Assembly: GCA_950295325.1 (NCBI GenBank)
Contig: OX485805.1
Coordinates: forward strand, 5,642,501-5,706,500
Direction: 5' to 3'
DNA from: Polytrichum commune
Taxonomy: Eukaryota > Streptophyta > Polytrichopsida > Polytrichales > Polytrichaceae
Length of the DNA stretch: 64,000 bases
Shown: positions 13,571 to 63,243 of the stretch, in pieces
Position numbering within the stretch: the first letter of the stretch is position 1
How the letters are laid out: each line of letters opens with the position of its first letter
The notes under the pieces: model-generated
Seen by the model: only the letters and a program-made list of their open reading frames with translations
The model's database searches: none
Told to the model about the DNA's origin: nothing
Made by a program: the position numbers and the translations under genes

Positions 13571-16500
13571 TGTCTAAGTAGAGTGCATTGGCATTATGCC
13601 TGGAGACCAACAATATGGTGGATGAAACCTTTGAGGTGAGACCATTATGTGGGCTATCCGCATTGCATTTGCCTACTAACCTTAAGGCTACAATCTACAA
13701 ATTTATTGTAGTACTATATGAATTCTTTCTCATGGATGATTTCACCGGAGTTTACCAAGAGATGACATTGCACATTTTATCTTCTTCATAACACCATCAA
13801 TTGAGATAAATAAAAAACTTGTAAAGAAAGTCGTGGGGATTGTGCAATTCCACTACACCGAGAGTAAAAACATGTCACGACCAAGCCCGAAGAAAACGAT
13901 TAAAAAACTTCAAATTGATCGGTGATGTGTTCATTCCACTTTTGTGCATTCTTTCTCGATTATAACATACCTTGAGATCCGTGAATGAATAATTGTAATT
14001 ATCCAATTTGTTGGTAGCGTGTTCATCTTCAAAGGTTCAGGTCCGATATGATATGAAACTACCGGGTGATAGTGGAGAGGTACCCATTTCCGAATGGAGT
14101 GGTTGGCAGTTTGATTCCTGCTGTGAAATCTTCTCTCTATTTGACAGAGAAAAAAAACTAGCTAGGCATCCAGGAAGCCAAGAGCCCACCCACCACAAGG
14201 TGGGCAATGAACCCCACCTTGCACCAAGAGGATTCTTGAACAGACTAGGGCCAATGGGCTCAAATTCACGTCGGATTGACTGATGTTAGTTATTTATTTA
14301 TTCAAAGGTCCAAGAGGCCCATTTGTGAGCCTCAATATGTCATACAAAGTTATTTAAAATTACTTACTCTCATTATAAACTCCAAAAATTGCAAAAATAA
14401 TCCCACTTAAACCACCAACCCATTCTATCAAACACACCATGCATTCCAATTGGAGCATACACATATGTAAAATGAATATGGAAGATCTCCAATCAATATG
14501 AATGATGTGTCTTCGTATACACACCAAACATATCTTATCACCACTATTGCATGTACTTCCGCTTTGTGATTAGTTTGTGTTAAATATGGTTTGAACCCAA
14601 GTGAAATTTTAGTGAACATTTGTTGGGCGCTTCTTTGAAATATTGTGTAAGCCGAAGAATGTATATCATTGATTGCCTCAACGTTGATCCTTGACAATAT
14701 TGGCCATTGCCCAATCCCAAAGGGCCACCCATGTACTCGAATTATGTATTTTTGGTAGGACAACACACAAAGAGAAGTCTTAATCGGTGGCCAACACACG
14801 CATTTTATGCACTAATGCCTCCCTCATTATACTTGGCTAGTGTTCCTCTACTTTATTAAAAAACGGGGTAAAGGAGATGGTGGAGTTTGTACACAATAAG
14901 TGTGAGATTGCTTGAGCCTAGAAACTAAAGATCCATCAACAATACTTGCAATGTGATTTCAATGACTCATATGTACAAGAATGGCAGAACTTGAGCTTAA
15001 ACTTCATCACAAACTTTGTTCATTCATAGAGATAATAGGTAAGCTCCTATGTGCAATTGATGGGGGGAACCGATCACTAGTTACAAATGACCGGTTGAGT
15101 TTGAGAAATACCACTTGAAGTTCAAGACTTTGGGAAAATTAGTGATCATTCTAGAGGAATCTATGGAATATGCCCATAATTAATAAAGAAATATCAAAAG
15201 ATCACAACATGTAACCAATTGGACTTGGAAACATTAGGATTTTGATTGATTGTGTTCAAAAATCTCCTCAGACACTGGCTATGTGGGCTTTTTGTGGCCA
15301 CTTTTCTTGATTAGAAGTGTATGTTTGATTGGTGTATGGCATAACTTGGAGTTAAGAAATCAACAAATAGATACACGTCATGATGAGATTCAACTGCATG
15401 CTCAAAATATAGCCACCATGCTAGGTTCAACAACTAAGACAATAGATAGATAGAAACTCCGGTCCCTTTTTAGCAAGGGGCCGGCGTGAATAAAGTGTCC
15501 GTTCGTAATGCCAATGACCCGATGCCCACTGGACAAGGGGACATTGGGACAATACTACTCTCCCCTTTCGAGGATGGACACTATAGTGACACAACTAGTT
15601 CCTAGCTAGCCACTAGTGCCTTGAAGATACCGGACATGGTATCCCCCCAAAGGGCTCTGAGGTACCCATACAACAAGAACTAACACAATATGAAAGACTT
15701 ATGTTACCTAGTCGAGAAAGAGAATCTCCACTTTGACCTCTTATAATGTTTGTATTTAAATTAAGATCTTGAATCTTGAAACAACAATCTTTGTGTTTCA
15801 CAATTGCTAACCAAATGACATTGACATGTCCCAATCTAAATCAACAACCAAGTGGTTTTGGAAGTGGCCACTCCATGATCTAATATCTTATATCCACATT
15901 TAAATTGGTTGTTACGGCCTAACCGTTTGAGCTCAATCTCGAGCTTGCAAGTTAGGTGGTCCAAGGTAAAATAAATTGGACCTTTTAGAAGTGTGTAAAT
16001 AACAATGCTTTCTTTCCTCCTTTTTTTCCCACGTTGATTTCAACTTTAAAGAACAAACTTGAACTTCATGATATACATTAGATGTCTACCGATAACTTAT
16101 TACTCCTCAAATTTCCACCATGAATTTTCTATTAAACATAAGGCTCATTCACACGGCCCAATAAACATGGCAACGACAATATTGTAGGCTTTAGCGTGTA
16201 CAACAACCTCACGTGCACCCGCATAGTTGCGAAACCTCCTAGTTACCCAAACATCCTCCATTGCGAGCTTTATGCACAATTGTTAGCGGTACAACATACA
16301 AATCACCTTCCCAATATGTTACATATTTTCATTGATGAACTTTACAATATTTATCTCCTAATTGATCACATTCATCACTCGTCCTCACAATACAATCACC
16401 CAAACAAACTACTCATCACCACTTTTATCCATATCTAGAACATATTTCACATATCACACACTCAAAAGTAAGCATCCATATTAATATCTTTGGAAATGAC

Positions 16501-17906: not shown

Positions 17907-18829
17907 TTTCGGAACCGACATTTACGAACGTGCGCACAAGCCTTTCCTTCCTTCCGTGACCCTTTTGCCCCACTAACCTTTTTGGGCCTCTTTTAAAATA
18001 AACGAGAGTTTTGGGTTCAAGCAAAAAACACTGTGATCATGTAGAACCTTATAGTTATCTGGAATAGTCATGCTACTCTAGGTTTTCATGCATTGAGGGT
18101 TAGCTTCAATTTTATTGAACGCTTCTCCTCCAGTCCAAAGCTTGTATTTTAAAGCCGGGCTTAGGGTGCACGAGTGAACTAGGGTACCATATCACTTTTT
18201 GTAGATTGATTTTATTACCCGTAAAAGAGTGATAATTAAGTAGTCCTATATTCTTATGGGCAAGGATGGATATCTAGGTGTGGTAGTCTTACTAATGCCC
18301 CCTTCTTAGCTAAGCCTAAAAATTGGTTCTATGAATACGGCCTTCACACCATCGACATTATTTAGTGCTGAGCCTAGTTGGCAAATGGTGTGGCATGGTT
18401 TAAAAGTGGAGGTCTTAAGCTTCAAGCACTGAACCTCCCATCAGTACCTAGATATGAGGCAAGAATGTAGGGCTTTTAAAAGTGTCGCCTCCCACCCTTA
18501 GGACACGAGGAGCTTCATTAACTAAAACCGACGGTGAGATAAATGAGTAGTAAGGCATTTGGGGATGGGACAACAACTATTCAACATTCATTGCTTGGTA
18601 GATAAAAGAATAAACATGTGTGAAAGCTACATAACTAAAACTTACTTGAAAAATCTCTGGAGCAAATTCTTGTAGGTGCATTGGGATAGCCGGGATGCCT
18701 CCGCTATAACCGAGGGAGCTTTACCCGGGTTTTAGGAAAAACTTTGGTTATTTGGTAAAGTGAGGTGGGGGGGGGGGCATGGCTGGGGCGAACCAACCTG
18801 TACACTGGTTCCTTGGAGGCAAGGGTTTA
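17907..18829. other. intergenic, nothing recognised
   Basis: No gene is seen. An 11-base G tract lies at 18767-18777. Confidence 0.5.
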
Positions 18830-19330
18830 GGGCCACTTCACACACAAGCCAAGAGCCGTGACCATGAATTTGTGAGAGCCCAAAAGAAAGTGTCCATAGG
18901 CCGTCCCAACACACCTCCAAACTCATGTAGTGCGGTCATGGACTTACCTTCAAGTGTAGTGTGAAGTCATATGTGACCATGCTCTCAACCAAATGCTATT
19001 TCAATGCATTTCTATTTGTGCGGGTTCTCACACATGATAAAATAGAATAAATCAACGGTTGGGAGCGTTCGAGTGCCATGGTCTCCCGGTTTTGTGTTAG
19101 GCCTACCTCTAAGAGACGGTTTACGAAATAGTCCAAGTGACCATGAAACATGATCCATTCAATGCCACATAGAAATCCATGTAGACTTTACATCCATCTC
19201 GCATTCACATACTCCGTTGGTCCCTCAAGCACACTGGGAAGCGAACTTGGACCGGCTCCGCCTTTTCCACCAATGAGAGTGCTTGAAGTGTAGTGGTCAC
19301 AGGCTCTCAGTCTCGTGTGTGAAGTGGCCC
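18830..19330. mobile_element. MITE, PIF/Harbinger-like, TTA target duplication (family E, copy 1)
   Basis: This 501-bp element starts GGGCCACTTCACACACAAGC and ends GTGTGTGAAGTGGCCC. TTA lies directly outside both ends (18827-18829 and 19331-19333). A 502-bp copy in opposite orientation is at 62532-63033, with high similarity along its whole length. It encodes no transposase. Confidence 0.9.
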
Positions 19331-20440
19331 TTAGGCATTGAACAAGGAACGAGTGTATGGGTTGGTTCGCCCAAATCGAGGGGGCATAATCCTACTCACC
19401 TTATTAATTTGGTGCAAATGTTGGCAAAGATGAATGTAAATGTAGTATATATACATACATACATGCATACATTCGTCATAGAATGGGGGACAGGTGGCAG
19501 GCGCGTGACGCCTCCGTGGCCCAATATTAAACGAGGGGACTCCACGGGCTCTCGCGTCACCGAGATGTCATCAGCCTAGGACGACGGCTGGACCGTCAAG
19601 GCCGGAGTGGCCGTAGAAATGTACCCGCCGCGTAGATTTCAGAAGCGTAAGAGCGGAATCTGGTGCCTCCCGCGAGGCCAACAAAGTCTAGCGCGATCCC
19701 CGCAAGATCGCAACTCGGTCGGTGTGGAGCCACGCTGCAACCAAACCCTCGGAGCTCGCCTCATGGTTCCGAAAACGTGTGCTTAGGGTTCCGGTACTTC
19801 GCTGAAGCAACTGGGGACTGAGATGCCATGGTACTTAAACTTGCCCGATTTTCATGCCCCACGTGGTGCGTAAACATCAGGATTCCGACGCACATCTACA
19901 CAGCCCAGGATCAGCATATTGAAGCGAGGGTTGGATATTGAAACCCTTGCCTGCGGCCACGGAGCGGAGGAGTGGAAATAATCGTGGCTTTGTAAGAGCT
20001 ATACAGGGACTCTTCTCGCGACGTAGGGTCAGGAAGGTTGTTGCCGTTGTCACGGACACCGGGAATTTGGGACGTACAGGTCTGGAAGAGCAGAAGAAAG
20101 TCGGTTTCGCTGTTGTGACGAACATTTTGGGAAGCACTTTGGAAACCCTTTGGCGAGTGGAATTGGATGTGTCTCGTGGACACGGAGATTGTGTAAAGGT
20201 TGCCTGCGTCGTGTGGAAGGGCAGGGCGGGGCGTCTGATTACGGGAGGGCATTCTCGGAATGGGAATCAGGAAGTGGCTGCGGTAGCGGCTGGTTCTTAG
20301 GTGTGCGGGGATAGGAATCGTGTGACCTGATGAATGGATGGATGGATGGAGGCGTGAGACGAGTGATTTGAGCGAGTGATTCTGTCTTCAGGGTAGCCTT
20401 GGCTCAAGGTAAGCTTCAGGGTGCCTTAAATGTGACAGTT
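19331..20440. other. GC-rich unassigned stretch upstream of the COI1-like gene
   Basis: From about 19480 to 20400 base composition rises sharply compared with the flanks. Overlapping frames of 86-120 codons exist on both strands (for example 19938-20300 plus and 19911-20252 minus). None shows a domain I recognise, and overlapping two-strand frames are expected in GC-rich DNA. It could be promoter or leader of the downstream gene, an unrecognised gene, or a captured sequence. An ATGG microsatellite is at about 20333-20352. Confidence 0.4.
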
Positions 20441-20924: not shown

Positions 20925-23900
20925 ATGTGTGCACGAAGGAAAGCCAAGACGGCGCAGGAGTACGCTGGCTTGTTGATGTTCCCGGACGAAATTCTGGAGA
21001 AGGTGATCGAGTCCTTGCCACTGCCAGCCGATCGAAATGCGGTGTCTCTTGTTTGCAGAAGGTTAAACTATCTGGAGGGGATCACACGGAAGGTGGTGTT
21101 GGTGTCAAACTGTTACGCTATCCGGCCTTCCACACTTGTATCACGGTTTCCTAATGCGTGTTCCATCACCATCAAAGGGAAACCCAGAATCGTTGACTTC
21201 TCTCTTATCCCACATGCGGAGATTTGGGGAGCATATGCCACTCCTTGGGTGGATGTGATCACAAAGTATTACCAACCCATCAGGCACTTGAAAATGAAGC
21301 GGATGACCATAACCGATGAAGAGATTGAGCAATTGGTGAGTGTGTGTGGTGGGAGCTTGCGGATGTTGGAGCTGGAGAAGTGTTCTGGATTCACCACCAG
21401 AGGGCTTGAGAGTATCGCTCGCGCATGCAGGTATTAATGGCCAAAAGACATTCTCAAAATCTCATACCATGTTTTCATAACTTGCCATGGTCGTGTATAA
21501 CAAGAAGTGGAGGTGTGCGTAACACATGAGCTGTGGGAGTGACAAAAGTGGGTTTTGTAACAAAGAGGAAAGGAACCCCCTTGTTGAGATTTTAATTGAA
21601 AATGTTCAACAAGTCATATTTTTTTAATCTCTCTGATGGCATGTTGACCTCTTGTTCTTGTGATACGAGTCACTAGATAACCACATCTTCACAGCTCCTT
21701 TTAACAGTCGAATGTCCTATTTTGCAAGGAGTCCTCTAGGGTTGGACATAAATATTAATGACTTGATGCTACGCAAAAAAGAGATGATCACATTGTTGAT
21801 GTACTGAGAATCTACCAGCTTATCTGAAGCTGATGAAGGCGAAGACTTGATTGATTGAAGTTGCAGATGAAGATATTTTGATGTTGATATTACATCATGT
21901 TCATGTTATTTACATAAATTCAGAGTGGTTCAGTTATGTTGACATAACATGTGGTTCACGCAACATGTTAAAATGGACATATCTTGTTAAAATGGATATT
22001 GATTTAACTACTTCAAGATGAACATGATGTCACTAACATCTACATGATCAACATATTGAAGTATATCTCCTCGCATGAAGTTGTGCATGATAACTTCGCT
22101 TAACTTGCAGGAGAAATGGTCTCCTTCTACCTGAATAAGATGCAGGACAATGTTTTTATATCAATATCTAAAAGACAAGACAAGTTGAATTTGTGTTAGG
22201 TTGTTGGCTGACTTGAATGCCTATTGCTGTGCAGGAACTTAGTCACTCTGAATCTTTCAGAAGCAGACATTCAGAACCAGAACCAGGGGCCTTGTCGCTG
22301 GCTACCTACTTTGGCAAAGACAGCAAAGTCACTTCAAGTCTTAGATCTGTCGCTCACAGAACTGGAGGATGCTGATCAAGCAGTGCTTGCAGATCTAGCC
22401 AGTCGCTGCCATACTCTGAGGCTATGTCAGGGTCTGAAAATTGGCCATTTTTTGCCTGTAGTTACTGCTGCAGCCAGGACTGTGCGCCACTTTGGCATTG
22501 GGTAAGTCATGGCTTCTTACTGAGTTATGTATCTGCATAACTTCTGGCTAAATCTCTGCTTAAGATTTCTGCGAAGTTTTTAACTCTGTATTCTTACATT
22601 CTTGGTGTACTTTACAGGCTATACTCGCAAAATATTGAGAATCCTGATGAGATTGCGGAGGCTTTTGGAAAGTGCAAAGAACTGGAAGATGTCTCAGGCT
22701 TGTGGGACCTTGATGAAGGGTCAGTAATGATGTTGATGCCGATTGCTGCACGACTGACAAGACTAGACCTTACATATGCTCTTCTTGGGCAGCCTGAGCT
22801 CACTGACCTGTTGAGTGCCTGTGTCAATCTTGAAGATCTTCAGGTATGCATAGAATGTTTGTCAGCTGGATTTAATTTCCCTTGTAGTAACTGAACATGA
22901 AGCAAGTCCACAATCTTTTTCTTCTCTTTTGCACAGCACTGTTTTCCATCATATTATTTGTGCAGCCCTGTAGTGCATACATGTAGCATGTCTAATGTAT
23001 CGTTTTTTGGGTGTTTAGTGTACAGATATCGTTGGAGATCGAGGACTCAGGGAGGTTGGAACCATGTGCACAAAGATGAGAAGACTTGTGGTTCAGCAAG
23101 ATGATTCTGGATTTGTAACACAACATGGTCTTATGGCAGTGGCAAAGGGGTGCCACTACCTTGAGAAGATTATTATATATGCAGCTGACATGACCAATGA
23201 AGCTTTGGAAACTCTTGCAACCAACTGCCCCAATCTGACAGATATCCGCATATGCCTTGTCCAGAAGTACCATGATGCGCACCCTGTAAGTCTGGCTCTC
23301 TGCAAGTTTATTGTCTTAATTGTAGTTTTGTTGGCTCCTTGTGTGCTTGAAGGAATGGGGTGGATTATGCAATTTGTACCTTCTCTTGCATCAGACCTGC
23401 AACACAATATAACTTAGTGCCTAAAGTACGTTGGTATCCATGTGCCAAATCTGAATCTAGGCTTTGCACATGGTTACAGCTAGCTAAGAGAGTCGGCATC
23501 AAGCCAGTCAAGAAGTCAAGCTGCAGTGATTCTTGCTGCAAATTGTGCCTCAGTATCACTTGGCTGTGTTTTTCTTGTTCTTGTTTTGGGTTAAATGCAA
23601 TACTGAATTTGTTTGATTTCATTATGACTGAAAACAGTACTGACTATCTAATAGATGGTCTGATCAAACGAATCAAATACTTATTTTTTGGCTGTATACT
23701 GATCTTGCTTTCATCTGATCCCTGCAGGTTATAGAGCTCGAGGGGGAGTTGAATTCATTGAATCTGGGAGTCAAGGCGCTCATGATGAAGTGTTCCAAGG
23801 CTCGAAGATTGGCCCTCTGTTTCAGCAGATTTGGGCTTTCTAATGTGGTGATTACTGACGAGGGGATGAGCTACATTGGGCAATATGGTCGGAACCTGAA

Positions 23901-24647
23901 CATCATCACTCTCACAAACTGTGGCAGCAGCGATGCAGGTCTTGCTTTTATAGCTGTTGGTTGTGTTAAACTCCAGAAGCTGGAGCTTCGCCATTGTCCA
24001 TTTGGAGACGCAAGTAAGTCTGAGCTAGTAGCTTCTTGGATCTATTGCCAGCATTAGCACTATTATTGGACATGAAAATATTTTGCACGTGGTAAGATAT
24101 CGTAAAGTCTGTCATGAACATTGTGAGTATGACCTTTCTTGACACTCATACGCTTAAGACTGCAGATGTGTTCTTTTGTTATTATCTCTTCTTGGTATGT
24201 GCTGCCCATGTTGTGTTGTGTTTTGCATGTCAGCATGGGGTCTTAAGAGGCCAACCTTCCCTTTTATGGTCAAGTATGTCCTCAATGCACTTACTAATCT
24301 TTGCTTCTTGTGTGAACAATTGTTCAGGTATGCTAGCGCTTGCCATGGGTTGCCCTAGTTTGAAGCACTTGTGGGTGCAAGCCTGCCAAGTGGAGTTGCA
24401 AGGGGTCAGAATGCTGGCCAAGCGTCCCGGCCTCACTGTGGAGGTAGTGAAAGAGAGTTGCAATGATGATGGACCTAGCACACCTTGGCAGCTCATTGCT
24501 TATGGATCAGTAGCACCCCCTCGGGATGATCTCCCTGATAACATTGACCATGTCCATGATGGTTATAATACGCCGTTGAACAGTGAACTATTCTGCTGTC
24601 CTAGCACTGTTACAGAAGCGGGAGAAGCAGGGCAGGGTAACCAGTGA
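20925..24647 (+). CDS. COI1-like F-box/LRR receptor (jasmonate-type co-receptor), six exons
   Basis: Exons: 20925-21430, 22235-22501, 22618-22843, 23019-23285, 23728-24013, 24328-24647. All junctions are GT-AG and the phases agree, giving 623 residues (Arabidopsis COI1 has 592). An F-box lies near residues 17-55 (FPDEILEKVIESL, SLVCRR), followed by leucine-rich repeats. In this family the protein is the substrate receptor of an SCF ubiquitin ligase and binds JAZ repressors through a jasmonate-type ligand. COI1 landmarks are KGKPR (84-88), KCSGFTT (152-158), TRLDLTYALL, IVGDRGL, DMTNEALE (390-397), YIGQYG, LKHLWVQ and LIAYGSVA. They fit COI1 better than TIR1/AFB. By alignment from memory, Arg85, Tyr386 and Arg409 of Arabidopsis COI1 are kept (Arg88, Tyr387, Arg410). 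Ala384 is Ile385, Arg348 is Val357, Tyr444 is Cys453 and Met88 is Asp91. It could instead belong to the related seedless-plant XFB group. Angiosperm COI1 usually has three exons. The C-terminal tail of ~30 residues is extra. Confidence 0.9.
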
Positions 24648-46973: not shown

Positions 46974-49900
46974 ATGGGGAGCCGGAAGGTCGTTGTGTTT
47001 GCTATTTTCCTGCAGGCGCTCTTGTGCTTAATCGAGGAGGCTTCTTCAGTTGGAGTGGTGAGTAAACCAAACCTCGCGCCTTCTTTAAATTCTGGATATT
47101 GTGTATCCAATGCGGCAACCTGCGCACAAGTTCTTTTGGCGTAGATTTACATTGGTAGCTCTGAATCTCTTCCTGCTTCTTTTGCGATCGAGTGATAATA
47201 TGATAAGATTTCAGCCGCTTTGCTCTTCTAGGAATAGAACGCTTGCACAGCCCGAGTTCGTTTGTCTTGCTATTCGACTCTGGTCTTTGCGGATTCAGCG
47301 ATCGCTTTCGCTCTCGTCGTTTGAGTACGACATTTCGTCTTCTTACGAAGCGCTGGTCGCATGGATCGGTCCTTGTACTGTTCCTACATCCAGCTTGGAA
47401 GTACTGGCGAACGAAAAAAAAGCCATACATCTATTTTCCGTGTGGTGTATGGCTTCTCAGAGGAATGTGTCGTTTGTGATCTTCGGCAAGTCAACTTAAT
47501 TCACAGACTCCCAAGCAGTAGAAGAAGAATAGCAGTTTGAGGAAATAATATGATGCGTGTCTTCGTCGCGGTAAAGAGCTTAGTGCCTTCAAGTTAAAGT
47601 AAATTCTTTCAAGGTTCTCGTAAAATAGGATCCGATGTCTGAGTCGAACATCTAAGCAGTGGTGACGAAGGTAGACATTTCCAGTCATGGCTAGAATTAG
47701 ATATATGGATACAGTATCACAACAGGAAGGAATGAAACTGGAATGCTGGGCCGGCGATTACCAGACAAAATGGACAGTTACGAAGGGATCCAAATGCAAC
47801 GAAGCTACAGTCCACGTTGAATAGAATACACAAAGTGCTCATAAATGTCTTTGGTCATGACTGTCATTACACAATTTCCTGTTGCTCTGCAGACCTCGAG
47901 TCCCTGTACATCGGACTTGGATTGCGGACAGGGTCTATACTGTTTTGCGTGTGATGGAGCCTCTTCTGTTTGTACGAACGACCAGGCCACTCCAGTGTCC
48001 TCCTTTTCTCAGGTTTCCATTATGTCACACCAGTAGGCATTTCTTCATTCAAGTGTTCTAAGTTATGTATCTTTGAATGAATGGCAATAGGATACTCTCT
48101 CGTAAAGACTCTCTTGCTGTTCGCACTCTCAAGTACTTGATTTTGCAATCATAAGGTAATAGTGGGTTTTGCCTTCAATTTTGCACAGATAGGAAATAGC
48201 TGAGTCCATCATCTCAAAACAATTTATTTTTATTTTTACGTGATGATTTCATATGGCGCTTTTGCCGGTTGCAGAATTATTCCCTGCCTTTCAATAAATA
48301 CGCTTGGATCACGACGCACAACGCATATGCTATTCAAGGTGAAACGTCTCTTTTAGGCTCGACCATCATCTCAAGCAAGAACCAAGAGGACAGTATAACC
48401 AGCCAGCTCAACGTAAAGCTCTGCACCCTGTTCCTGAATGTATCAATGCTATTTGGCTTTGCAAATGAATATGTGAAGATTTCTGGACGCTTGCATCTTC
48501 CAGACGATCTACACTAATTAGCTTTGATGCATGTCATTGGACATCCTAGGTATGCAATTTGACGTATTTGCCTGTGTCTGGCGAATAAACACTTCGTTGT
48601 ACTTATCTCAAGTGGATTCGTTTATTACTTTCGGAATATCTGTATCTTGAAGCTGCTTACTATTATCGGTTGTGATGTTCACAGAAAGGTGTCAGAGGCC
48701 TTATGCTTGACACCTACGAGTTCATGGGAGATATTTGGCTTTGTCATTCAATCAACGGCGTATGCTACAATTTCACTGCTTTTGTAAGTTTGACCACCTT
48801 TAGGAGAAATTGCCTTTGATCTTTGGCGACCTTGAACTTACGAGGTCAGTGTTAGGAGTCTAGAAACACCGAAGTTATGTGGAACCTTCACTTCTTGTCT
48901 GCAGCGAGATCCAATCTACTTCGCATGTCTCGAAAGCATCTCTTTTGAACCAACCCATCAGGGAAAAAGGGATCGTCAAATTTTAAAGTCTTCTAGATTC
49001 GAACTAACTATTTAATGAAGTTTTTTTGGAATAATTTTCTTAAAAGAATGGTTTGAACGACAGTTAATAAGGTCAAGCAATGAGATCCCAAACCTTCGTA
49101 CATTGGTTAACTCTTCCTGGAAAATTGTATAAACATTACCCACATTAAGATTATTTTTATAAGAAGATTGGCATAAGTCCAAGAAGATTAGAACACCTCG
49201 TACTGAGACCTACGTGCTCTCTTGAATGTCTCAGCGGCCACTCAATGGCACATTGCTCGAGATTGAGGCATTTCTGGCATCAAATCCAACTGAAGTTGTG
49301 ACCATATTTCTGGAAGACTATGTGCACACCTCCGGAGCTCTTACCAACGCTTTCAAAGCTGCAAACCTGACTCAGTACATGTTCCCGTTGGCCAGCATGC
49401 CTACGGATGGAAGTGACTGGCCCACTCTTTCTGCAATGATTGCAAAGAATGAGAGGTTACTGGTCTTTACTTCTGACAAAACTAAACAGGCTGGTGAGGG
49501 CATCGCGTACGAGTGGAACTTTTTTGTCGAAAATCAATGTAAGTTTACAATTCTGTACGTGGAGATACATATCTGGTTATCTGAGAATATATGTTTGGTT
49601 CAAAACTGCATGGCAAGTATCTCATGAGTGCGCAAAATTGACGTGTTGCAATTTCTAACGAGGTCAGGGTTATTCCTCAGCAGTATAAATAGATTATATC
49701 GGAAATTTGGCTATTTTCAAATAACAGCTGAACGTATTATTCACTAAAATTGACACTCGTTCTGGCTGGACTGCAGATGGCTCTTTAGCAAGTACTTGTC
49801 CAAACCGAGCAGAATCTGCTGTCTTGACGGATAAAACCAAATCTCTTTTTCTAGAGAACTACTTTCCCGAAAACCCAAACGAGACAACAGCGTGTCTTGA

Positions 49901-50786
49901 CAACTCGGATGCCCTTGGTAAGGCACTTAATGTATGTCACTCAGCAGCAGGGAGATGGGCTAACTTTCTAGCGGTGGACTACTATCAGGTACATGCTTAT
50001 ATTCCAGCGAAACCAGGTCAAGAGGGTTACATCGATTCTTGATTGTGTAGTTACTTGGATATCTCCCTACAGTTGCTTTGGAGTTATGAGTACGCAATAA
50101 TTACTCTTAGAGCTCCTTGAGTTCCCATCCTGCAAGATCCTCCAATGCAATTCATCCACCACAATATTTGTGACAAAGTGTAGTTGATTTTTAGTTTCGC
50201 CTTCTCACGCGCAGCAATGAGCAAAAATCATACTTTATAGGGTTTTAACCGATAGTTGATAGCTTAAACCGATTGGCGTTGTCATCTTCAAGTCAGAAGT
50301 CTTTCCATATGTAGGATCTTCCCGCTGATAAGATTTGTGACTTGATTTTCAGAGGAGCACCGGCAAAGGGGTTTTCTCGGCAGTTGATACTCTAAATGGA
50401 CAGCTACAATGCGGCTGTGAGGACATTCGTGCCTGCCAGGTGAACTTCTTGATGCACCCTGTTCGTCAAAACCATAAATCCATCTCCTCAAGTCTGTTCA
50501 AGAAGAACGCCAATGACCATGCATAAATATCCTAAACATAAATACCTGAAGTTTCAGTAGTTACATTTCTGTTTGTAACGGTATGTGGTTTTTGGTGATA
50601 CAGGGAAGCAGTGGTCCAGGTATTTGCAGTGTGGTAAACGCACCTGTAGGAGTTCCAAGGACACCGCCTCCACCACCCCCCCCAGCCAGCCCAGTATCTC
50701 AATCAAACAGTTCATCTGCGAGTCCTCTAACATTCAGTAAAGGGATGTTATGTGTGGCACTCGTAGTAACATATTTCTCATTGTAA
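46974..50786 (+). CDS. PI-PLC X-domain protein with GPI-type tail, eight exons
   Basis: Exons: 46974-47057, 47893-48012, 48275-48412, 48685-48783, 49235-49538, 49777-49988, 50353-50439, 50604-50786. The GT-AG sites and phases agree and give 408 residues, close to plant PLC-X-domain proteins of the At5g67130 type. Residues 1-25 form a signal peptide. A cysteine-rich segment follows (SPCTSDLDCGQGLYCFAC). The X-like domain has TTHNAYA (His83, the first catalytic His position of PI-PLCs), GVRGLMLDTYEF (116-127), DIWLCHS (His135) and VVTIFLEDYV. The C-terminus is proline-rich (TPPPPPPPASP), then SSSASPLTFSK and a hydrophobic end, as in GPI-anchored cell-surface proteins. Plant members lack the Y and C2 domains of classical PLCs, and their enzyme activity is not established. 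In-frame ATG 46953 would add seven residues ahead of the signal peptide. The exon 2 donor (GTTTCC) is weak. Confidence 0.88.
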
Positions 50787-51465: not shown

Positions 51466-53807
51466 TCAGCTTGCTAAACTGTTTCGAATCTCTGCAATCC
51501 TTGCTGCTGAGATGGACAGGTCCTCTGGGTAGTAAGCGATGGGATCCAGCAGCAGCGGCTGTGGCAGATGGAGGACGCCCTCAAGAGTTGCATGGACACA
51601 GTATGGCGAGTAAGAAATATTGTAACCGCCCTCTTGAACGATGAGCACGCGACCACCAGTGTAAGCATCAGCAAGCTCTCTCACCATTTGTCCTATCCGG
51701 CGATAACCATCCATTGTCAGACACATTCTTCCATTTGGATCAAACTGCAGCAAAGGGAGGGAGACACAGAATTTGGTCAGCAAAAGTAATGTTGTTCTGC
51801 TAAGAAACCCAGAGTGAGTCATCTTATCCTGAAGCTAAATTGATATGTAGTCCTGTGTAATCACAGATGCAAAGAGACTGATGCTATGAGTCATTAAGTA
51901 TTTGTCAGAACAACTGGTCAATAAACCAGTGAATGCTTGTAGAATCAGTCGCTGCTTGAACTTACCGCACTAGAGTCCTGGCCGAATGTCATAACAATCA
52001 TCTCAGGTTTGAAGTTATCTATGGCTGGAATTACAAGTTCTGACATTGCCAGCTCGTAGCCCTTGTCTCCAGTCCCATTTGGCAAAGGTACATTTATGTT
52101 GAAACCCTTGCCCTTGCCAGAGCCCACTTCATCTGTTAACCCAGTCTGGGGATGCGAGGCCCCCCACGAGCCATGGTTCATGTGCAGGGAGATCGTCAGC
52201 ACATCGTCTCTGGAGTAAAACCCCTCCGCCGTGCCGTTTCCATAGTGGACATCTATATCGAGGACAACCACTCGCTTGCAACCCTGGTAAAACAAAGCCT
52301 TTCACGCTCTTATTAGGTTTAGAAAAGCACTAATTCTACCGAGACAATCATGAGGCTGAGAGATCTTACACGCTATCTACATAGAAAGTGAAGAGAAGGG
52401 TTCTAAACCTGTTCGATTGCCAACTGCACCGCCAGCCCTGCGTTGTTAAGAAAACAATATCCGTCGGCCTGCGTGGGCTGGGCATGGTGACCAGGAGGTC
52501 GTACCAACGCATAGGCAAGTCTGCCATGGCCGTTGAGGAGGTATTGCATAGCCTGCTGTGTCGACCCTGCCGCCAACAGAGCTGCCTTCCAAGAGCCAGG
52601 ATTTAATTGTGTGCCCTCGCACATGAACTTCCCACCGGCAGCGTCAGCAGCAACGAGCTCTTTCACATACTCTGCAGTTATTTGGAAAGCTCGTCACCTA
52701 CGAGGTCCCTCCATGTCAAACTTCTTGCCGGTTCTCGTTCTTTAGAATCAGGTTCATGTGCTTCGCATCAACCGATATAAATTCCACGAGCTGTTCTTAG
52801 GATTATTGAAGGAACTACCGAAGGTTGCGAATTGAAGCGAGGACTGTGGCTCCGAACACGTTACTCTTGATGAGAAGGTGGTAACTTCTATCATCGATTT
52901 CTTTGATACAACTAGCCAACAACTAAGTGCATGCAATGACTAGATTTCAAATGCTGGATAAGTGACCCGGAATCCTGACAACATTCTTGCACAAAGAAAG
53001 TGAGAATTACGTCTATGTGATTCGCATCAATCGGAATAAATTCCATGAGGAACCACCGGACGTTGAGAACTGAAAGGAGGAGTTTGGCTGCCAATACCCT
53101 ATTCTTGATGAGAAGGTGATAAATTCTATCACCAATTTCTTTGGTACAACTAGCCAACGACTGCATGGGATGACTAGATTTGAAATGCCAGATAATTCAC
53201 CGCATGTGAGATTTGATTTCAAATGCTGGATAATTCATACCATTCTTGACGACATTCTTGCACGAGGGAAGTTGAATTGGAGTGGATGCGTGCACTACCT
53301 GCAAATCTCACATCAACGGCATCGACGCCAATGCTGTTTGACATCAACATACGGCTGCTTCATGCAGCCAGGGAGCACATATCTATGCGCCATGGATCGA
53401 TCGAGTTGCAGATTTTACTGCCAACCAAAACGTCCACACTACTTTGATTCTAGTCAAGAAATTGCTCACAGACAGACGTCCATAAAGTAAATAGGAATTG
53501 GGTTGTGCGAATTGGAACCTGGAGTGTGAAACCTTGTGAGACTCTCAATCTCCGCGTGACGGCCCTCGTGCCACTGGATGAAGGGGGCGATGGGTCCTCG
53601 CTGGAGAATGGATCGGATGTTGCGGATACGATCGGCATTTTCGGGGTGCTGCTCTAGGACATCCAAGAACCCAGGATCCTCCAGAGTGTCGAACACGCCA
53701 AACCCAGTGTTGTGTTCAAGCATGCCCTCGTGGAAAAAGACGTGCACTTTTTCGAGGTCAGCGTGCTCAACCCCCGCCATAGCCGTCTGTTTCTTTCTCT
53801 TCGTCAA
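51466..53807 (-). CDS. histone deacetylase, HDA8 type, four exons
   Basis: Exons on the minus strand: 53807-53519, 52671-52409, 52283-51966, 51744-51466. GT-AG junctions and phases agree, giving 382 residues (Arabidopsis HDA8 has about 377). The whole length is the deacetylase fold of zinc-dependent RPD3/HDA1-superfamily enzymes, which remove acetyl groups from lysines of histones or other proteins. Markers are LEQHPENADRIRNI (51-64), LVRPPGHHAQPTQADGYCFL (catalytic pair His158-His159), DIDVHYGNGT (zinc ligands Asp195 and His197), GQDSSA with FDPNGR (zinc ligand Asp287) and EGGY (Tyr331). PTQADGYCFLNNAGLAVQLA and the DPIAYYPED end are typical of HDA8. No nuclear signal or extra domain is visible. 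The start could be 53780 (MAGVEH), which matches HDA8 length better than 53807. It is convergent with the PI-PLC-X gene. Intron 1 contains a tandem duplication. Confidence 0.93.
52749..53275. repeat. tandem duplication inside HDA8 intron 1
   Basis: About 250-260 bp is present twice in direct order (about 52755-53004 and 53016-53273). Shared blocks are TTCGCATCAAYCG, AATTCCAYGAG, CTTGATGAGAAGGTG, ATTTCTTTG, ACAACTAGCCAAC and CATTCTTGCAC. A third partial copy of the TTTCAAATGCTGGATAA block lies at about 53219. It forms most of the 847-bp intron. Confidence 0.75.
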
Positions 53808-54440
53808 ATCTATTACAAGTTCCCAGCAAATGGAACTACTGGTGATGTTAGTGATGCTGCCTCACATACACATATCTGCTGTCGCCATCTGCACTACTCT
53901 CGCACCAATTGATGTGCCATGACTGTAAATTCTACAGCGTGGCACGCTAAGGAAGCTCTTCATGTCTATACCGGAGGTACGGGCTGCTTTCCGAGAACAT
54001 GGTTTTTGAGCACTTTGCGAAGAGGCAGGTAGACATCTCGCCATCGGAACCCGCAACCATACCTGAATTCTGGAGCTTCATATCTGTAGATACAGCTATG
54101 AAGTCTGTGCATGCAACTGATGTTGATGTCGACATGGACATTGTCTAGTGAAGTGCTTGAGGAGACTCTCGCTTGAAAATAACAGCAGAGTGCAACGACA
54201 TTCAACAGCTTCCAGGTTTCGCAAAGTTATTTACCTTCAGGGGAGAGTGCGGATATGATCTCGAAGTTCCTTTGCGCAGGCCCAGTGCTTCAAACGCTTG
54301 AATCCCCTGCTGCCGCATCTGCGCGCAAGCACAGAGGCAAGTTCAACAACCTTTGTGATCATATCCGTGGGCACTGTACTCATGTACAGATACAGAAGGT
54401 GCATATGAATCCTACGTGACAAATCCTCGCTCAGTACGAA
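53808..54440. other. 5' flank of the HDA8-type gene, possible unrecognised exons
   Basis: On the minus strand a frame at 54422-54237 (KVVELASVLARR, FKRLKHWACAKELRDHI) ends at a good donor (CCTGAAG then GTAAATAA, about 54230). A second frame at about 54205-53966 contains SSSTSLDNVHVDI and APEFR ahead of a GTATGG donor. These could be leader exons of the HDA8-type gene or part of another gene. I recognise no domain. Confidence 0.3.
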
Positions 54441-61203: not shown

Positions 61204-62531
61204 AGGGTAGTGGAGAGTTAGAGCTAATTTTGTTTTTAAAAGTTGTGGAGTGTGTATTTTTAGAACACATCCTAGTTGATCCTAGTGATGAAGTTTTGTT
61301 GATGAGAAGACACCTGAAGGTGCTCAAAGATTAAGAAATCTTGGTACCATGGATGATGCCTAGAAATTAGATATTTCCAAATTGTGTTTCTCCTCGCCAT
61401 GTCCAGGAATCATCAAACCAGCTGGATCGCGACTGCCAAAGGTGAGAATAAAAAATCTGGAAATACCATGTATCCAAAGTCAAAGATTTATATCTGTATG
61501 GTTATGTAAAATCTTGATGTCCTGTAAGAGGCAAAGCAGTGTGAAGACTATCAAACAACCCCTCGAATAGACGAGACAAATTGTTTGCCCTAATCTTGCC
61601 AGATTATTTGAAAGTTGACTCCACTTTGTTAAATCCTAGTTATGGTGTTTCTTCTCATTTAGAATCAAGCAGATGCTCAAATCAAAGGATTGTCATCTTC
61701 TACAGTTTTCACTAATTTAAATCTGAAGTAGAATACATTGTCGGCTGAACTTGTTCAATATCACCACTGGCTCAAATTCTGATTCTTCGGGGTGCAAACC
61801 CTGAACAGGTTGAAATGCCAACATGCAGGCTTTATGTATCCACTTTCTCATAAAATCAATGAGTCATACTATCAACTCTAATGGATGCAAAAGCCGTTCA
61901 CTTACTGTGACATCTCAATCTTCCAAGGTCCGTCTACTTTAGGTCACATGTTTGCCATGGAATAGAATCGTCCACATGCTTCTGCTGCCTAAAGCTGATG
62001 ATGAACCTCACAAAGATCTTCAACTTAAAGAGAAATCGGAAGATGGCATCGGAGGCTTTCCTGTTGCTGCACATATTGTTGGCTTGTGGCAGTCACACTC
62101 TTAAAGCAGAGTTAGGTATTCATTGAGTGCCTTGATGGATCAGTTAAGAAAATTACTGTGGTAGAGCACTTTGCATGATGGATTCTTCGATTCGAGTATA
62201 GATCAAGTTAGACAACATCAGAGGGTTTACTGTCATTGCACACATTGTTGACGTAGGCAGCCACATGAGTGCCTTGAGGTATCTGCTGAGGAAATTACTG
62301 TATTTTCAAGGGTCAAGCTCCATGGAGGTCAAGAAATCATGCACCATGGTCCTAATTTACTCTTTTGGCTCCTTGGGTGAGGATGTGATCATTAAGGTTC
62401 ATTGAAGGCTCAACGCCTGAAAACTTTCCTGACCCCCAAGCCCCCCAGGATATGAATGAAGCTCCCAAAATGTGAGGTCCTTTCACTATGTCACCAGTGA
62501 CATGAAGAATCTCAATTCGAGGACAAACCTA
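61204..62531. other. 3' flank of TatA/Tha4 with a small duplication
   Basis: Begins with the 3' untranslated region. About 62045-62165 and 62215-62305 share GTGAGTGCCTTGA-like and GAAAATTACTGT blocks and encode similar short strings (GGFPVAAHIVGLWQSH versus RGFTVIAHIVDVGSH). These may be decayed fragments of an unidentified gene. No intact frame is present. Confidence 0.4.
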
Positions 62532-63033
62532 GGGCCACTTCACACATGAGACTGAGAGCCCGTGACCATTACACCTCAAGCAGTCTCATTGGTGGAAAAG
62601 GCGGAGCCAGTCCCAAGTTCGCTTCACACTACGCTTGAGGGACCAACGGAGTATGTGAATGCAAGATGGATGTAAAGTCTACATAGATTCCTACACGGCA
62701 TCAAATGGATCATGTTTCATGGTCACTTGGACTCTTTTCAAAAACCACCTCTTGGAGGTAGGCCTAACACAAAATCGGGAGACCATGGCACTCCAAACGC
62801 TCACAACCGTTGATTTATTCTATTTTATCATGTGTGAGGACCCGCATGAATAGAAATTCGTTGAAATAGCATTTGATTGAGGGCCCGGTCACATATGACT
62901 TCACACTACACTTGAGGATCCGTGACCACACTACATGATGTTGGAGGTGGTCTTGGGACGGCCTTTGGACACTTTTCTTTTGGGCTCTCACAATTTCATG
63001 GTTGCGGCTCTTGGCTCGTGTGTGAAGTGGTCC
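62532..63033. mobile_element. MITE, PIF/Harbinger-like (family E, copy 2, inverted)
   Basis: 502 bp, opposite in orientation to 18830-19330 and similar over its full length. It starts GGGCCACTTCACACATGAGA and ends GTGTGTGAAGTGGTCC. The flanks are CTA on the left and TTA on the right, a target duplication with one change. No transposase. Confidence 0.85.
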
Positions 63034-63243
63034 TTAGATGTTACATGAGAAGATGATGGGTCTACCATGTGAATGGGAAAAAATGACAAGAATATGCACG
63101 GTGCACAAATGCACATCCTCTTTCATGGAAAGTCCCTGAGAGAATGTGAGGGCATGGACAGGGTTTCCAACATGGAGGGGGGCATTTGTAGGCATAATTT
63201 TTTTTTAAATGCTTGGCACGCCCTCCCATGGAACTTAACTTTC

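Follow-up and report, generated by a model that had tools for sequence, protein, structure and literature searches.

The auxin and jasmonate receptors of plants are sisters, and a third sister, of unknown ligand and target, has been named in the literature. The question of which sister is at hand is raised by a gene lying at positions 20925-24647 (forward strand) of a 64,000-nucleotide stretch of the Polytrichum commune genome (hereafter the window; positions 5642501-5706500 of contig OX485805.1, in an assembly of 408 Mb and 64 contigs), which an initial annotation had described as a COI1-like receptor with several hormone-pocket residues changed. Compared with four relatives from its own genome and with TIR1 and COI1 of Arabidopsis (AtTIR1, AtCOI1), its product (hereafter the focal protein) fell outside both receptor groups. 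On sequence grounds, we consider it likely to be a third-lineage member of the TIR1/AFB-COI1 family serving as a substrate receptor of an SKP1-CUL1-F-box (SCF) ubiquitin ligase, with membership of the XFB clade as its most likely identity.

The domain content of the focal protein is that of the TIR1/AFB-COI1-XFB superfamily, with F-box_5 (41.9 bits) and Transp_inhibit (53.5 bits) domains, both over the Pfam cut-off, and leucine-rich repeats, together extending across the full length. Its F-box starts with PDEILEK, the acidic residues of which align with those of TIR1 and COI1; acidic residues at this place have a role in SCF assembly. Among the sequences of solved structures, phmmer retrieved five distinct matches at E <= 0.001, near-full-length for TIR1 (E 3.7e-99, 335.9 bits, residues 17-590) and COI1 (E 1.8e-94, 320.5 bits, residues 20-590) only, and the slightly higher score of TIR1 gave a first hint that the label "COI1-like" may be too narrow.

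Searching the source genome with the Transp_inhibit model revealed five genes (13 of 13 candidates scored), while the F-box_5 model matched 11 places, six of them absent from both the Transp_inhibit set and the search made with the focal protein. The latter, run with the whole protein, returned 18 matches, corresponding to 17 exons of the five family genes and one weak 68-residue match elsewhere. The exons of the four relatives were modelled by enumerating frame-compatible GT-AG pairs, splice sites being picked by score against AtTIR1, AtCOI1 and the focal protein. As modelled, the family comprises three COI1s (L027, L029 and L030, with 44, 45 and 42% identity to AtCOI1), one AFB (L028, 56% identical to TIR1) and the focal gene; for Marchantia, the available text of PMC4447296 gives 54% to TIR1 and 44% to COI1 for its two genes. 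The focal protein, aligned with these four and with AtTIR1 (7-573) and AtCOI1 (17-585), whose letters are identical to the PDB chains, is 35.3% identical to L027, 37.5% to L029, 32.8% to L030, 36.1% to AtCOI1, 35.7% to L028 and 34.6% to AtTIR1. It is thus nearly equidistant from the auxin receptors and the jasmonate receptors, with 33-38% identity to COI1s, against 42-45% between the COI1s of its genome and AtCOI1, and 35-36% to the TIR1/AFB proteins, against 56% between L028 and TIR1. At 25 columns that are occupied in each of the remaining five rows, L029 and L030 show gaps, perhaps because an exon was misjudged in their models; columns gapped in both are subject to the 80% filter used for the main tree.

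That tree, computed without a root from the seven proteins over 520 of the 719 alignment columns under LG+C20, grouped the four COI1s (support 100/99) and the two AFBs (100/100) each without the focal protein, which stood between them as a third lineage; being unrooted, it shows this third lineage and not whether COI1 or AFB is nearer. Constraining the focal protein to group with L029 and L030, with L027, with AtCOI1 or with the three COI1s of its genome was rejected by the approximately unbiased (AU) test (p-AU 0.0002, 0.001, 0.0023 and 0.0026, respectively), at a cost of 17-27 log-likelihood units, as was grouping it with L028 or AtTIR1 (p-AU 0.0018 and 3e-53; cost of 67 log-likelihood units). 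The layout was unchanged without the pocket columns, in the N-terminal half, in the C-terminal half and after realignment under LG+G4 (COI1-group support of 99/97, 91/88, 99/97 and 100/99, respectively). Placement with the three own-genome COI1s or with L027 was also rejected in the C half (p 0.012 and 0.018), without pocket columns (p 0.011 and 0.003) and after realignment (p 0.0003 and 0.00006). Two labels were thus discarded on the tree: TIR1/AFB, both AFB placements being rejected, and COI1, for which all four full-alignment placements were rejected with the N half as the exception (p 0.09). The initial heading of a COI1-like receptor could accordingly not be retained, since the protein lies outside the COI1 group.

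The gene itself is complete, as first annotated, its six exons splicing exactly into 1872 nt that encode 623 residues with a stop at the end only. All five introns are GT-AG and no frame break was found along the 623 codons. Its exons, and the three codons on which the discussion of the pocket turns, are as follows.

20925..21430, forward strand: exon 1, with the start codon, the F-box (residues 19-56), the TIR1/COI1-specific Transp_inhibit domain (76-123) and the first leucine-rich repeats
22235..22501, forward strand: exon 2, beginning inside codon 169; the preceding intron has a position and phase common to the five family genes as modelled
22618..22843, forward strand: exon 3; the preceding intron occurs in the focal gene only, among the five family genes
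23019..23285, forward strand: exon 4, with Val357, Ile385, Tyr387 and Arg410; the preceding intron is common to the five family genes as modelled
23088..23090, forward strand: codon GTG for Val357, equivalent to Arg348 of AtCOI1 and Arg344 of TIR1; the six comparison receptors each carry Arg
23172..23174, forward strand: codon ATT for Ile385, equivalent to Ala384 of AtCOI1; ordinary for moss COI1s
23728..24013, forward strand: exon 5, with Cys453, Thr483, Thr485, Asn486 and Arg510
23818..23820, forward strand: codon TGT for Cys453, equivalent to Tyr444 of AtCOI1; the four COI1s compared each carry Tyr
24328..24647, forward strand: exon 6, with the last repeats, Trp533, the C-terminal tail and the stop codon

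Since their codons sit inside exons, Val357 and Cys453 are unaffected by the choice of splice sites. As modelled, all five genes agree in the position and phase of two introns. The focal gene has these two introns, and its domains, in common with the COI1s of its genome and with L028 alike. One further intron unites L029 and L030 and is absent from the focal gene, L027 and L028, and three introns were found in the focal gene only.

Residues that separate the two receptor groups tell a comparable story. Twenty-seven alignment columns are uniform within the COI1s and within the AFBs but differ between the two groups; the focal protein sides with COI1 at 13 of them, with AFB at six and with neither at eight. 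Using, in turn, the residues invariant in three COI1s and not common to both AFBs, the fourth COI1 (L027, L029, L030 or AtCOI1) keeps 63/83, 63/75, 63/77 and 63/105 of them (60-84%), while the focal protein keeps 33/83, 29/75, 36/77 and 40/105 of the same sets (38-47%). It also retains 76 of the 87 residues universal in the other six proteins and, because this share equals that of AtCOI1 (92-97% of their own sets in the other five rows), it looks diverged but constrained.

We then considered the hormone pocket, after verifying AtCOI1 numbering on the solved chain (85 R, 88 M, 348 R, 384 A, 386 Y, 409 R, 444 Y). In the seven-protein alignment, Arg85, Phe89, Leu91, Tyr386, Arg409, Arg496 and Trp519 of AtCOI1 are kept in the focal protein, and the individual residue readings of the initial annotation all proved accurate (Val357, Ile385, Cys453 and Asp91 changed; Arg88, Tyr387 and Arg410 kept), as did an acidic loop eight residues shorter than that of AtCOI1 (7 versus 15). 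The weight given to these changes had to be redistributed. Three of the five say nothing on the ligand, because the receptors of the same genome look similar at those sites. The residue matching Ala384, Ile385, had been read as consistent with a ligand other than jasmonoyl-isoleucine (JA-Ile), but L027 likewise has Ile, and L029 and L030 have Val, as fits a moss; according to the available passages of PMC8201998, moss COI1s predominantly carry Ile, and in the moss Calohypnum one COI1 carries Ile, the other Val. Asp91 is no departure either, since the three own-genome COI1s carry Glu and both AFBs Asp, leaving the Met88 of AtCOI1 as the oddity among the seven rows, and the acidic loop is 7, 8 and 11 residues long in L027, L029 and L030. 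A bulky residue at 384, an Asp at 88 and a short acidic loop are therefore not special to this protein. As a side observation, the COI1s of this genome fall into two types, with Ile in L027 and Val in L029 and L030 (which have their extra intron in common), a split that may mirror that of CpCOI1a and CpCOI1b reported for Calohypnum.

The two remaining changes stand as genuine departures. Val357 replaces an Arg present in six of six comparison proteins (Arg348 of AtCOI1, Arg344 of TIR1), and Cys453 replaces a Tyr present in four of four COI1s (Tyr444), at a site where the two AFBs show a three-residue gap. The alignment places neither Arg nor Tyr at these positions in the focal protein, and its own residues there are not universal in COI1s, as judged from the three in its genome. 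In the available text of PMC8201998, the ligand- and JAZ-contacting residues of Calohypnum COI1s are conserved, so that an ordinary moss COI1 retains them; the same text reports that ligand-dependent COI1-JAZ binding could not be shown in Calohypnum. Further changes, absent from the initial annotation, were recorded at Ala86 (Ile89), Gly448 (Phe457; Gly in the other six proteins), Trp467 (Ile481), Leu469 (Thr483), Gly471 (Thr485) and Val411 (Cys412, as in the AFBs), together with Tyr472 (Asn486), which is less telling as the own-genome COI1s carry Cys. Ala86, Arg348, Tyr444, Trp467, Leu469 and Gly471 are uniform in the four COI1s, from which the focal protein also differs by inserts of eight (424-431) and five residues (460-464). 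Relative to TIR1, it keeps Asp81, Phe82, Arg403, Cys405, Arg436 and Arg489, has Tyr for Phe380, and differs at Phe79, Arg344, Ser438, Ser462, Val463 and Ala464.

Contact residues published for each receptor lead to the same picture. In strawberry COI1, with numbers converted to AtCOI1, the available part of PMC7347570 assigns JA-Ile contacts to 85, 348, 386, 409, 444 and 496, and inositol phosphate contacts to 85, 348 and 409. Four of the six JA-Ile contact positions are kept in the focal protein, the exceptions being Val357 and Cys453. For TIR1, the available part of PMC5019376 lists Lys113/Arg114 as contacting inositol phosphate, Arg403, Ser438 and Leu439 auxin, and Ser462/Ala464 the degron. 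The focal protein has Lys125/Arg126, Arg410, Ala451, Leu452, Thr483 and Thr485 at these positions, so that Arg410 and Leu452 are kept whereas Ala451, Thr483 and Thr485 differ. Its Lys84, Arg449 and Lys506 presumably match further inositol phosphate contacts. The basic floor of the putative pocket is thus mostly kept, with one conspicuous loss, while its walls and the predicted degron surface match neither receptor. Looking in the literature for pocket residues under their numbers found no paper; among the matches listed by another search, PMC5019376 was of use, the available text of PMC9706486 was general only and that of PMC10526342 held none of the terms.

Which third lineage might this be? 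The XFB clade is described as a group of land-plant F-box proteins, neither TIR1/AFB nor COI1, of unknown function and found in mosses and some lycophytes (available text of PMC7048394, citing Prigge 2010 and Bowman 2019). Among the literature matches listed, PMC7048394 alone was relevant to XFB, and unlisted or subscription papers could hold more; PMC4652017 contains the letters XFB and was set aside, its title concerning wheat drought. This description suits a genome that has Ile/Val-384 COI1s, a single AFB and a single gene of the third lineage, and the focal gene resembles the clade, as described, in standing as a third lineage of land plants next to TIR1/AFB and COI1 where both of these occur in the genome. 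Of the three options initially proposed (a different ligand, a changed JAZ contact and an XFB-type receptor), the third-lineage tree best supports the last. The gene probably represents an unexceptional member of a clade that has been recognised but has no assigned function; it is also a clean example of the third lineage, the only one found in this genome, with the COI1 and AFB genes beside it as internal controls.

As an XFB member, the focal protein would join an SCF ubiquitin ligase through its F-box. The kept basic residues (Lys84, Arg88, Lys125/Arg126, Arg410, Arg449, Lys506 and Arg510), whose equivalents hold inositol phosphate and carboxylate groups in relatives, persist in a putative pocket that has lost the otherwise invariant Arg348/344, and the remodelled pocket and degron surface (Ile89, Val357, Ile385, Cys412, Cys453, Ile481, Thr483, Thr485 and Asn486) would recruit for ubiquitination a substrate that is neither JAZ nor Aux/IAA. 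Such a pocket most likely binds neither JA-Ile, dinor-12-oxo-phytodienoic acid (dn-OPDA) nor auxin, and its use in the manner of any of the three appears unlikely. A small acidic ligand other than these is slightly favoured over none, because three arginines that contact the ligand in relatives are kept. The question is thereby narrowed to a few residues, one arginine (Arg348/344) being lost and the other ligand-contacting ones kept. More tentatively, plants of this lineage might retain a third co-receptor akin to those for auxin and jasmonate, with a rebuilt pocket but most of the arginines that hold ligands, which would sense an acidic small molecule and destroy a repressor; this would make a hormone system absent from flowering plants.

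Several points weigh against this interpretation. With the N half alone, grouping with the three own-genome COI1s is not rejected (p 0.09), although grouping with L027 is (p 0.017), and support for the COI1 group is weaker there (91/88). The unrooted tree holds seven sequences, four of them our own gene models. The share of universal residues kept by the focal protein (87%) is the joint lowest of rows ranging from 87 to 97%, and two more basic positions differ, Lys79 of AtCOI1 being Thr82 and Arg516 being Lys530, the latter as in the own-genome COI1s. XFB membership was itself reached by elimination and from the description available in PMC7048394.

Furthermore, a receptor without a small-molecule ligand fits almost as well. 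Under this variant, an XFB protein would act as a plain F-box protein whose closed pocket reads the degron directly; we regard it as conceivable rather than probable, and it is nested within the best explanation, so that the probabilities of the two overlap. The loss of the universal Arg348/344 and the bulkier or polar residues at Ala86, Leu469 and Gly471 of AtCOI1 are what a filled pocket would lead one to expect, and a modelled homologue from the charophyte Coleochaete irregularis offers a parallel, 11 of its 12 hormone-contacting residues differing from both receptors (available text of PMC5873896). Against this variant, Arg88, Arg410 and Arg510, at sites where arginines of the relatives touch the ligand, are retained together with many other basic residues, which would be unexpected if neither inositol phosphate nor an acidic ligand were bound.

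A diverged moss COI1 paralogue, which would still perceive jasmonates of the dn-OPDA type, or a related compound, together with JAZ, appears unlikely. Such a paralogue would explain why 13 of the 19 one-sided separating columns are COI1-like and why Arg88, Ile385 and Tyr387 are as in COI1s, and rapid divergence could have moved a duplicated copy to a basal position in the COI1 group, consistent with the result of the N half (p 0.09). Set against this, the COI1 placements were rejected in four of four cases with the full alignment and in two of two without the pocket columns (p 0.011 and 0.003), Arg348 and Tyr444 are absent yet kept in three of three own-genome COI1s, and 38-47% of COI1-invariant residues are retained, versus 60-84% in a fourth COI1. 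The intron of L029 and L030 is lacking too, which is an argument only against an origin from these two genes. That the locus is a pseudogene or has no present function is a very improbable reading which we discarded. In its favour, 11 of the 87 universal positions have changed; against it, the share of universal residues kept equals that of AtCOI1 and the gene model is intact, with six exons, GT-AG borders at five introns and 623 unbroken codons.

Elsewhere in the 64-kb window, Rfam and tRNA scans gave no match. About 6 kb upstream of the focal gene, a reverse-strand frame (14431-14811) weakly matches the C-terminal (PB1) part of the Pfam AUX_IAA model (E 0.0084; 16.4 bits against a cut-off of 22.7), with no related solved structure and no NCBIfam family; it may at best be the degraded remnant of a gene for an Aux/IAA or ARF protein, and is possibly a chance match. 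On the reverse strand, a histone deacetylase gene is represented by two exons (51469-51834 and 51948-52301; Pfam Hist_deacetyl), and an open frame at 53469-53861 without Pfam match may, judged by eye, be its first exon. On the forward strand, open frames at 48200-50039 have, by eye, the look of exons from a gene for a plant phospholipase C-X-domain protein; three of the frames, tried singly, gave no Pfam match. Finally, a dispersed repeat of about 500 bp occurs in inverted orientation at 18829-19331 and 62531-63034 (five pieces with 89-93% complementarity), and one of its copies stops some 1.6 kb upstream of the focal gene.

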